DNA of 41,930 bases, taken from assembly GCA_937899725.1 (NCBI GenBank), contig CALCCA010000107.1:1-41930 (forward strand). Direction: 5' to 3'. This DNA comes from an uncultured Halomicronema sp. GTDB lineage: Bacteria > Cyanobacteriota > Cyanobacteriia > Phormidesmidales > Phormidesmidaceae. A model generated the notes under the pieces. The model was not told the DNA's origin. It did not search any database and saw only the letters and a program-made list of their open reading frames with translations. Below, one piece after another: positions 32,998 through 36,021 of this stretch. A program made the position numbers and the translations under genes. Positions within the stretch are counted from its first letter, which is position 1. Each line of letters starts with the position of its first letter.

Positions 32998-33330
32998 ATG
33001 CAAAAAGCTCTGGACACTACCGTCTTTGATGTCGTTTCAGTCTTAAAGGCTCTGGCGGAGCCGCTGCGGGTTGAGGTGATTGAACTATTGAAAGAGCAAG
33101 AGTTGTGTGTCTGTGACCTGTGCGATCGCCTCAATGTCTCGCAGTCAAAGCTATCGTTTCATCTCAAAACTCTCAAAAATGCCGGCATCGTACGCTCTCG
33201 GCAACAGGGTAAGTGGATTTACTATCGGCTGAATCTATCTCAGCTAGTGGAGTTAGAACAGTACCTCGCTGAGTTTCGCCGCTATAGCCCGCAGCTGCCG
33301 ACTCGGGTCTGTGAAGCCAGCGAGCTGTGA
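32998..33330 (+). CDS. arsR: Arsenic-responsive repressor ArsR
   Basis: A 110-residue winged-helix repressor of the ArsR/SmtB family. The metal-binding helix contains LCVCDLC with Cys37, Cys39 and Cys42, the type I As(III)/Sb(III) site of E. coli ArsR. The recognition helix is VSQSKLSFHLKTLKNAG and the wing is VRSRQQGKWIYYRL. I placed the start at ATG 32998 by family length; the frame is open to 32827 but that extension is not conserved-looking. It is the only regulator of the arsenic locus and has a matching operator next to its own start. Confidence 0.92.
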   Translation: MQKALDTTVFDVVSVLKALAEPLRVEVIELLKEQELCVCDLCDRLNVSQSKLSFHLKTLKNAGIVRSRQQGKWIYYRLNLSQLVELEQYLAEFRRYSPQLPTRVCEASEL

Positions 33331-33820: not shown

Positions 33821-34972
33821 ATGTCATCTGGTTCCAATACCCGTGCTGAATCGTTTCAGGCGGGCGGACAGCTAAGCTTTTTTGAAAGGTATCTGACCGT
33901 TTGGGTCGCTCTGTGCATCGTGGGCGGCATCCTGCTGGGCCGATTGTTTCCGGGCGTTGCCGTTGCGCTGGATGCGATGAGCCTCTATCAGATTTCAATT
34001 CCTATCGCAGTCTGCCTGTTTTTCATGATGTATCCCATCATGGTGAAAATTGACTTTTCCCAAGCGAAGCGGGCTGCACAGGCCCCGAAGCCAGTCATGC
34101 TCACGCTCGTGGTGAACTGGTTAATTAAGCCCTTTACGATGGTGGCGTTTTCCCAATTTTTTCTGGGCTGGCTATTTCGCCCTTTGTTATCCGGTACGGA
34201 GATGATTCGCGGCACCGAAGTGGCGCTGGCTGACTCGTATATTGCGGGCACCATTCTGCTGGGGATTGCCCCCTGCACGGCGATGGTCTTGATGTGGGGC
34301 TACCTGTCCTTTAGCAACCAGGGACACACGTTGGTGATGGTGGCGATCAACTCGCTAGCCATGCTGTTTCTCTATGCGCCGCTGGGGCGTTGGCTGCTGG
34401 CCGCGAACAACCTGGCCGTGCCCTGGGAGACGATTGTGCTATCGGTACTGGTATATGTGGGCCTACCGCTGCTGGCGGGCGCAATTTCGCGAACGTGGAT
34501 TTTGCGCCACAAGGGCCGCGCTTGGTTCAACGACGTATTTTTGAAGTATCTCAGCCCGATTTCGATCGCCGCCCTGTTGACCACGCTGGTGCTGTTGTTT
34601 GCCTTCAAAGGCGATCTGATTGTGCGCAGTCCGCTACATATTCTGCTGATTGCGGTGCCGCTGTTGCTTCAGACCAATTTCATTTTCCTCATCACCTATG
34701 TGGCAGCTCAAAAAATGGGGATGTTTTACGAAGACTCGGCTCCAGCGGCATTGATTGGGGCGAGTAATCACTTTGAGGTGGCGATCGCCACGGCAGTTAC
34801 CCTGTTTGGCCTCAACTCGGGCGCGGCCTTAGCCACTGTGGTCGGGGTGCTAATTGAAGTGCCGCTGATGCTGATGCTGGTAGAGGTCTGCAAAAAGACA
34901 GCGTTTTGGTTCCCCCGTGAGCCCGAAAAAGCAACGTTGCCCGATCCTCGTTGTGCTCGTCCCCTCGGGTAA
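33821..34972 (+). CDS. acr3: Arsenite efflux transporter Acr3
   Basis: A 383-residue Acr3-family arsenite permease with about ten membrane helices. The As(III)-binding Cys152 is in [13 protein letters not shown] and the conserved Glu319 is in [14 protein letters not shown]; both are needed for transport in the family. The start is ATG 33821 with an AGGAAG ribosome site. The protein exports As(III), produced here by the ArsC downstream, from the cytosol. The stop is five bases before the methyltransferase-ArsC frame, so the two are cotranscribed. Confidence 0.93.
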
Positions 34973-34977
34973 GCCCG

Positions 34978-36021
34978 ATGGAAACCCTGGTGCAGCAGCA
35001 GTACGATCGCCTCGCTCCGATTTACGATCAGCGCTGGCAGTTCTACATCACAAATACCCTGTCGTTTTTAATCGGGTGGGCCGGGATTGCCCCTGAGGAT
35101 AAGGTTCTGGATGTCGCTTGTGGCACCGGTGAGCTAGAACGCCGACTCACGGCCCAGCATCCTCAGCAAACCATCGTCGGCGTGGATCTTTCGGCGCAGA
35201 TGCTGGCGATCGCACAGCCAAAATGTGCTGATTATCCCCACGTCAGCTTTCAGCCAGCGTCGGCCTCAGCGTTGCCCTGGCAGCAACCGCAGTTTGATGT
35301 GGTGGTCTGCGCTAACGCCTTTCACTACTTTGATGCGCCTGATGCGGTTTTAGGAGAAATGCAGCGGGTGCTGCAGGCCAACGGTCGGGTGCTCCTGTTA
35401 GATTGGTGCCGCGATTTTATGGTCTGTCGATTGTGTGACTGGGGGCTGGGCTGGTTTGATCCGGCGCACAAGCGCTGTTACACCGAGGCCGAACTGCACA
35501 AATTGTTGGTCACAGCAGGGTACAGCATCCAGCGATCGCAGCGAGTTCGCTTTGGCTTGATTTGGGGCTTGATGGCTGTCGAAGCCGTCATTGATGACAG
35601 CAAGAACAAAACTATTACCCGGAGAAATTGCATGAAACGAGTTATGTTTGTCTGCAAGAAAAACTCTTCGCGCTCTCAAATGGCGGAAGGCTTTGCCAAG
35701 ACTTTAGGGGCTGGCAAGATTACCGTCACCAGTTCTGGTTTAGAAGCCAGTCAGGTGCGGCCCGAGGCGATCGCCACCATGAAAGACATTGGCATCGATA
35801 TTAGCGACCAGACCTCCAATGCCCTCAGTGAATTCAATCCAGAAGATTTTGATGCCGTGATTTCGCTCTGTGGCTGTGGCGTCAACCTGCCCCCCGAGTG
35901 GCTCACTCGCGAACACTTTGATGACTGGCAGTTAGACGACCCAGCAGAACAGCCAGCAATCTTTCCTCGGGTACGGGACGAGGTGAAGGAGCGAGTAGAG
36001 ACGCTAATCAACCAACTCTAG
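34978..36021 (+). CDS. Fused SAM methyltransferase - arsenate reductase (ArsC)
   Basis: A single open frame of 347 residues. Residues 1-205 are a class I SAM-dependent methyltransferase with motif I VLDVACGTG at 43-51, GVDLS and VVVCANAFHYF. From Met219 a complete ArsC of 129 residues follows. It has Cys226 in the CKKNSSR phosphatase-like loop, and the Cys pair of SLCGCG at ArsC positions 80 and 82, matching the thioredoxin/glutaredoxin-linked arsenate reductase of Synechocystis. The linker is about 14 residues with no stop. A CGGAGA site sits at the right distance before the ArsC ATG (35632), so free ArsC could also be made. ATG 34978 is chosen; the frame is open to TTG 34951. The methyltransferase substrate is unknown; methylation of As(III) is a hypothesis. 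Confidence 0.85.
   Translation: METLVQQQYDRLAPIYDQRWQFYITNTLSFLIGWAGIAPEDKVLDVACGTGELERRLTAQHPQQTIVGVDLSAQMLAIAQPKCADYPHVSFQPASASALPWQQPQFDVVVCANAFHYFDAPDAVLGEMQRVLQANGRVLLLDWCRDFMVCRLCDWGLGWFDPAHKRCYTEAELHKLLVTAGYSIQRSQRVRFGLIWGLMAVEAVIDDSKNKTITRRNCMKRVMFVCKKNSSRSQMAEGFAKTLGAGKITVTSSGLEASQVRPEAIATMKDIGIDISDQTSNALSEFNPEDFDAVISLCGCGVNLPPEWLTREHFDDWQLDDPAEQPAIFPRVRDEVKERVETLINQL

Follow-up and report, generated by a model that had tools for sequence, protein, structure and literature searches.

We analysed a window of 41,930 nucleotides (contig CALCCA010000107.1 of assembly GCA_937899725.1, from an uncultured Halomicronema sp.) and found on its forward strand an arsenic-resistance locus in which a methyltransferase and an arsenate reductase share one reading frame. 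The locus consists of the following features:

32998..33330, + strand: arsR-type repressor gene (ArsR/SmtB family); NF033788, 99.9 bits against a cut-off of 55
33821..34972, + strand: acr3 arsenite exporter gene; TIGR00832, 413.5 bits against a cut-off of 282.8
34978..35592, + strand: class I SAM methyltransferase domain, UbiE-like; residues 1–205, with Cys144, Cys150, Cys153 and Cys167
35592..35597, + strand: TGA TGA pair in the reading frame shifted one base upstream from the open one, where the methyltransferases of relatives end
35593..35631, + strand: junction of 13 codons without a stop; the tails after the domain differ between relatives
35621..35626, + strand: ribosome site of arsC, GGAGAA, with a GGAG-to-ATG spacing of 7
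35632..36021, + strand: arsC, glutathione/glutaredoxin-type arsenate reductase (TIGR02689), 129 amino acids, stop included

Translation of the stretch from 34978 to 36021 (+) gave a single stop-free frame of 347 codons, or 347 amino acids, made up of the methyltransferase (residues 1–205), 13 junction residues and ArsC (residues 219–347). The frame is open from a partner protein into ArsC, the property by which ArsC fusions are defined; the mechanically called ORF begins further upstream, at a TTG at 34951. A DNA search of the genome found the fused stretch once. The first-pass annotation had described one frame running from a methyltransferase into a complete ArsC with Cys8, Cys80 and Cys82, and both translation and profile scores agree with it. 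It had also placed a ribosome site at the ArsC ATG and the fusion five bases after acr3, and both details hold, as GGAGAA at 35621–35626 precedes the ATG at 35632, and acr3 ends at 34972 with the methyltransferase ATG at 34978.

The ArsC part passed the NCBIfam TIGR02689 cut-off of 157.6 bits both alone (206.7) and within the whole frame (203.6). Its cysteines are at exactly 8, 80 and 82 and its CX5R loop reads CKKNSSR; it aligns to PDB entries 2l17 and 2l19, which we take to be Synechocystis ArsC. By these features the protein is a complete arsenate reductase of the glutathione/glutaredoxin type, predicted to reduce arsenate. It shares the full-length match, the three cysteines and the loop with Synechocystis-type ArsC (TIGR02689), and differs from it in carrying an N-terminal methyltransferase extension. 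With acr3 and arsC on the same strand behind an arsR-type gene, the locus has the arrangement of a cyanobacterial ars operon. Both halves of the fusion showed low dN/dS (0.045/1.592 for ArsC against L091 and 0.163/1.144 for the methyltransferase against L089), with dS near or above 1 in each and partly saturated.

The same genes stand apart in relatives. Leptolyngbya sp. SIOISBB (G005; L091/L002), of the same genus as the window genome, has arsR, acr3, methyltransferase and arsC in this order; there the methyltransferase is closed by a TAA, CAGGAGACAAACG comes next, and the arsC ATG after it lies in a different frame. The arsR copy upstream of acr3 in L002 is 70% identical to that of the window, and the window's acr3 is 92% identical to the L002/L091 copy and 87% to the copy in L093. 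L093 belongs to a second relative (G007) with acr3, methyltransferase and arsC, where the methyltransferase and arsC already share a frame and TAA and TAG stand between them. Within the fetched stretches, arsC was missing beside acr3 and the methyltransferase in two genomes (G004 and G001), and acr3 was missing beside arsC and the methyltransferase in one (G012); the ars loci of four (G003, G008, G018 and G022) had acr3 and arsC with the methyltransferase absent.

Beyond these relatives, a close ArsC was present in 87 of 386 genomes sampled across the phylum. About 334 codons are needed for a frame that holds both proteins. The longest ArsC frames in this sample had 366 (the window's), 285 and 210 codons, and no other frame among the 87 ArsC-bearing genomes reached 334; those other than the longer ones inspected individually (below) had at most 185 codons and are too short for the methyltransferase. 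Among the 63 genomes of the family sample, the sole other single match through both domains was G007, its two stops counted. Of 959 records in the plasmid collection, one contained a match spanning at least 80% of the query, and it was not among the 20 matches listed. The first-pass annotation had proposed searching other cyanobacteria for the same fusion; no other of the 87 genomes had it, G005 and G007 keep two genes, and the architecture was not found in a second species among the relatives, the family sample or the phylum sample. The fusion is known to us from one genome only.

Several candidates for a second case were examined and rejected. In L002, a single tblastn line over residues 1–347 resolved into two matches in different frames. 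In the Bacteroidales loci L010, L012 and L017, the two genes occupy separate frames in reverse order, arsC first; here (L010 5001–5983, L012 5001–5995, L017 1864–2807) a distant methyltransferase of 24–27% identity follows arsC by about 150–250 bases in another frame. The long ArsC frame of G043 in the sample of relatives, 546 codons, proved to be Acr3-ArsC: in this cyanobacterial locus of the same class (L164, G043:C10:106000-112000), Acr3 and ArsC lie in one frame, and the ArsC part starts without an ATG, at LPRLIFVCRKNS, so that a true Acr3-ArsC fusion is likely. The 285-codon frame of G340 is ArsC with a C-terminal addition; about 145 residues follow ArsC in frame (L165, G340:C220:60000-65000) and contain an HCxxGxxR motif, which we take to be phosphatase-like. 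Among the other longer ArsC frames, the upstream open stretches of G530 and G020 are low-complexity or repetitive, those of G003 and G022 have no recognisable domain, and in G281 the frame of ArsC itself has just 138 codons.

How easily could such a frame arise? Once a stop is lost, reading on into arsC without meeting another is not unusual: an open frame of at least 142 codons, which is room for 13 extra codons, was present at 39 of the 86 other ArsC genes, although this figure is rough in that the extra codons may lie at either end of ArsC. One frame in three is the right one for read-through into arsC. The TGA TGA pair at 35592–35597 stands in the neighbouring frame where the proteins of relatives end. 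A single-base change, biological or technical, would leave such a trace, and the pair may possibly be the mark of such a change or of an error. Were it an error in sequence or assembly, the true genome would have a stop after the methyltransferase and two separate genes, and one missing or extra base would suffice. The assembly is a draft of 216 contigs and the fusion occurs in this genome only, which both fit an error. However, the tail that follows the domain is of freely varying length among relatives, which means that no single ancestral stop is known, and the junction has only short runs (four A and three C) and no long homopolymer. On balance we consider an error unlikely.

The arsC gene appears to have kept its own start of translation. 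GGAG stands ahead of arsC in nine of the ten relatives inspected, at a spacing of 6–12 (the exception is L112). No clear ribosome site precedes the methyltransferase start, and translation of the methyltransferase may therefore rely on coupling to acr3. Since the ArsC of the fusion was the only TIGR02689 match in the genome, losing free ArsC would be costly; given this and the retained ribosome site, free ArsC is probably made. We expect free ArsC plus some methyltransferase-ArsC fusion as the products of the locus. The first-pass proposal of a recent fusion or of dual products fits both the same gene order with a stop in G005 and G007 and the GGAG before arsC in the relatives.

We then turn to the methyltransferase. 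Residues 1–205 exceed the cut-offs of Pfam methyltransferase models, and AlphaFold2, run on 58 family members, returned a generic class I fold (pLDDT 94.6, pTM 0.90). The best VIA-align match was 6f5z (Z 25.0, rmsd 2.0, 202 aligned residues), and no ArsM structure was among the 50 matches listed in each fold search. The score of 35.4 bits against a cut-off of 263 for the canonical ArsM model NF008823 rules the protein out as canonical ArsM; the same model gave 21 matches in the whole genome, none above its cut-off. UbiE/MenG models failed as well (NF001244, 82.7 against 216; TIGR01934, 80.6 against 158.35). A profile search of the window genome found neither a TIGR04282 match nor an ArsM above the NF008823 cut-off, despite the presence of ArsS, which scored 407.9 bits with TIGR04167, above its cut-off (L234, G000:C165:1195-2127).

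Several cysteines are conserved in the family. Cys48, within the SAM motif, is present in all 61 family rows. In the main clade, Cys144 was found in 52/53 rows, Cys150 in 53/53 and Cys167 in 52/53; the sister clade has Cys144 in 8/8, Cys150 in 6/8 and Cys167 in 0/8. The AlphaFold2 model places strand 5 at 132–144, and Cys144, Cys150, Cys153 and Cys167 are found at its end or beyond it. Class I methyltransferases usually hold their substrate in the region after strand 5. In two genomes (L095 in G028 and L097 in G287), the methyltransferase ORF is about 110 codons longer upstream, at 325–326 codons.

Known arsenic methyltransferases offer partial parallels. ArsM, whether the cyanobacterial NsArsM alr3095, as far as the accessible text of PMC5258700 describes it, or the bacterial enzymes of NF008823, is likewise a SAM methyltransferase in an arsenic setting; the window's methyltransferase differs in falling below the NF008823 cut-off and in its protein ends (the history of ArsM is outlined in the available part of PMC5552862). 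It was rejected as NsArsM because the NsArsM ends MATYLET.. and ..HYNGGGCC are unlike those of the family, a comparison of ends only, translated from primers printed in PMC5258700. No NsArsM-like ORF was found in the fetched loci searched. TtArsM of Thermus thermophilus is another divergent SAM methyltransferase with an unusual cysteine set, able to methylate arsenite according to the part of PMC8649762 at hand, and is set apart by its description there as a 29 kDa protein with an N-terminal domain and two proposed histidine ligands.

We examined what surrounds the methyltransferase across the class. The family matched at E ≤ 1e-40 in 65 of 388 genomes sampled in the class, at 70 places. The neighbourhood set comprised 62 loci, namely 61 of these places plus L003, with one place each left out from G229, G332, G189, G227, G264, G128, G182, G340 and G316. 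One locus (L103, G135), in which the methyltransferase frame stops after 34 codons, was kept in the neighbour count and taken out of the tree. Neighbours scoring above NCBIfam cut-offs, in runs of one representative protein of each, were ArsJ, ArsH, ArsI/CadI, TIGR04282, TIGR04283, ArsS (TIGR04167, L146) and a heavy-metal P-type ATPase. Those below cut-off or assigned by resemblance were a MerR-like regulator, here with a precorrin-8X methylmutase domain, a permease, and RND adaptors and pumps. Overall, the family recurs beside acr3, arsC, arsH, arsJ and arsI, arsenosugar genes, P1B-ATPases and RND pumps.

At least one of 14 metal markers was present at 37 of the 62 test loci and at none of 40 control loci of other class I methyltransferases (Fisher P 1.9e-11), a comparison that favours the test set, as the markers were drawn from it, and in which many loci are related. 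The control loci were hand-picked, only 20 of the 40 being in genomes that also gave a test locus, and the median stretch length was 11 kb in both sets alike. Arsenic-linked markers alone gave 17/62 against 0/40. No metal marker was found in 25 of the 62 test loci, eight of which make up the sister clade (8/8). On the tree, the seven acr3/arsC-linked rows correspond to four label changes, gains and losses not being distinguished, of which at least three are forced by well-supported branches; the ars link has therefore been made or broken several times. The first-pass annotation had tied the methyltransferase to arsenic export by position, and that tie is now better supported, as members of the family are found repeatedly in ars and other metal loci.

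Some neighbourhoods have a character of their own. At L146 (G270:C6:94000-105000), L121, L135, L139, L142, L143, L147 and L149 the family adjoins arsenosugar glycosyltransferases of the TIGR04282 and/or TIGR04283 type. An FAD oxidoreductase related to MerA occurs at L147 (by NCBIfam) and L149 (by resemblance), and ArsS at L146. At L092, L131 and L138, PhnM-type genes take the place of metal genes beside the family; two proteins of L092, PhnM and a phosphonate HD oxygenase, score above NCBIfam cut-offs.

Plasmids gave a second view of the neighbourhood, independent of the marker choice used for the 62 loci since their genes were already annotated. The family occurs on 17 plasmid records, all from cyanobacterial genera, 13 of them typed conjugative or mobilizable. 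In 13 of the 14 regions viewed (H29, H30 and H32 lie outside this count), at least one nearby gene was annotated as metal, cation efflux or RND efflux; the exception was Nostoc sp. NIES-3756, a partial protein match. Among the 13, Tolypothrix PCC 7712 is included only for its RND genes and Chroococcidiopsis CCNUC1 only for a single regulator. The neighbours included P-type ATPases, CzcA-type pumps, metal-responsive regulators and cupredoxins, with merF in Stanieria. Such metal or efflux genes were absent from four stretches elsewhere on four of these plasmids. On the Stanieria cyanosphaera plasmid pSTA7437.03 (L220, NC_019750.1 31099-43707), the methyltransferase overlaps a CopZ-like gene by five bases, and this gene stands behind merF, a metal-responsive regulator and a small thioredoxin-family gene. 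On four other plasmids the methyltransferase directly adjoins a metal-responsive regulator or a thioredoxin gene.

The methyltransferase might still have nothing to do with metals and be a general UbiE-like enzyme that travels with mobile islands as a passenger. Its generic class I fold and UbiE-like scores would suit such a role, as would the spread of the family over 17 plasmid records, 13 of them conjugative or mobilizable, and the phosphonate genes beside some members. A passenger of this kind does not account well for the metal neighbours, which the 40 other class I methyltransferase loci lack, or for an ars link that changed at least three times on the tree. Cys167 also follows the metal setting, being all but constant in the main clade and missing from the sister clade, whose eight loci have no metal marker. 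We therefore hold a role unrelated to metals to be rather improbable, on a par with an error in the sequence.

We favour, as the probable account, an arsR/acr3-methyltransferase-arsC locus in which the methyltransferase, a member of a cyanobacterial family tied to metal(loid) resistance, recently lost its stop in one lineage, and which yields free ArsC and some fusion. With roles taken from their families, ArsR would sense arsenic, ArsC would reduce arsenate with glutathione/glutaredoxin, and Acr3 would export the arsenite. Ribosomes starting at the arsC site would make free ArsC, and those reading on from the methyltransferase would make some fusion, which is probably tolerated because the N-terminal partner does not block ArsC. 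The methyltransferase itself would act on toxic metal(loid) species, perhaps arsenite or thiol adducts. From neighbourhood and cysteines, we infer that it would most likely transfer methyl groups to a metal(loid) or its thiol adduct, with the conserved cysteines holding this substrate. Since the loci vary in the type of metal concerned, the substrate need not be the same for all of them; the arsenic, heavy-metal and copper-type neighbours may point either to a shared thiol-bound substrate or to broad specificity.

Fusions of ArsC are known as a kind. The text available from PMC6205960 names Acr3-ArsC (Mycobacterium tuberculosis), ArsR-ArsC, AqpS-ArsC and ArsN-ArsC, and mentions that small ArsC proteins have been regarded as seemingly 'predestined' for fusion. 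In these, as in the window, ArsC is joined in frame to another arsenic-resistance protein; the window's case differs in that the partner is a methyltransferase, that it is seen in one genome and that arsC keeps its own start signals. ArsRM of Brevundimonas sp. M20, an ArsR-methyltransferase fusion for which the accessible part of PMC10190100 gives measured arsenite methylation, likewise places a SAM methyltransferase on an arsenic-resistance protein, through an 11-residue linker compared with 13 residues in the window. Its partner is a regulator rather than a reductase, and methylation was measured for it whereas the window's fusion is known from sequence. The portion of the cyanobacterial review PMC4284471 available to us lists PstS, Gap3, an MFS transporter and a glyoxalase as extra ars neighbours, and does not name the window's methyltransferase among them. 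The first-pass annotation did not recall the fusion as a described architecture. This stands for the pairing, as no methyltransferase-ArsC fusion was named in the open-licence literature searched, mostly titles and abstract openings; it does not stand for ArsC fusions as a kind, which are described (PMC6205960, as excerpted), and the present one belongs to one genome and may be an error.

A selected bifunctional enzyme, in which the tethered methyltransferase would take over arsenite made by the ArsC half and methylate it before it leaves, could draw on the continuous frame, the retained ArsC active-site residues and intact SAM motif, a 13-residue junction modelled partly as helix by AlphaFold2 at lower confidence, the recurrence of the family in ars loci, and the described fusions of ArsC and of methyltransferases to other ars partners (PMC6205960 and PMC10190100, in the parts available), but the fusion occurs in no other genome searched, arsC retains its ribosome site and the methyltransferase is not canonical ArsM, and we judge such an enzyme very unlikely. 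The wider proposal of a new cyanobacterial metal(loid) methyltransferase family, distinct from ArsM, with the cysteine trio 144/150/167, here forming a tethered reductase-methylase that passes arsenite directly, is as a whole an equally long shot.

The metal link of the methyltransferase family is a better result and lead than the fusion. If the fusion is real, it would add a new partner to the known series of ArsC fusions and place reduction and methylation in one chain. In many Cyanobacteria, metal(loid)-resistance islands on chromosomes and plasmids are marked by the methyltransferase family, to which the libraries used give no specific name. Since the methyltransferase is small and its gene context clear, the question of its substrate is directly testable, and the answer would tell whether, in addition to ArsM, cyanobacteria possess another route by which metal(loid)s are methylated.
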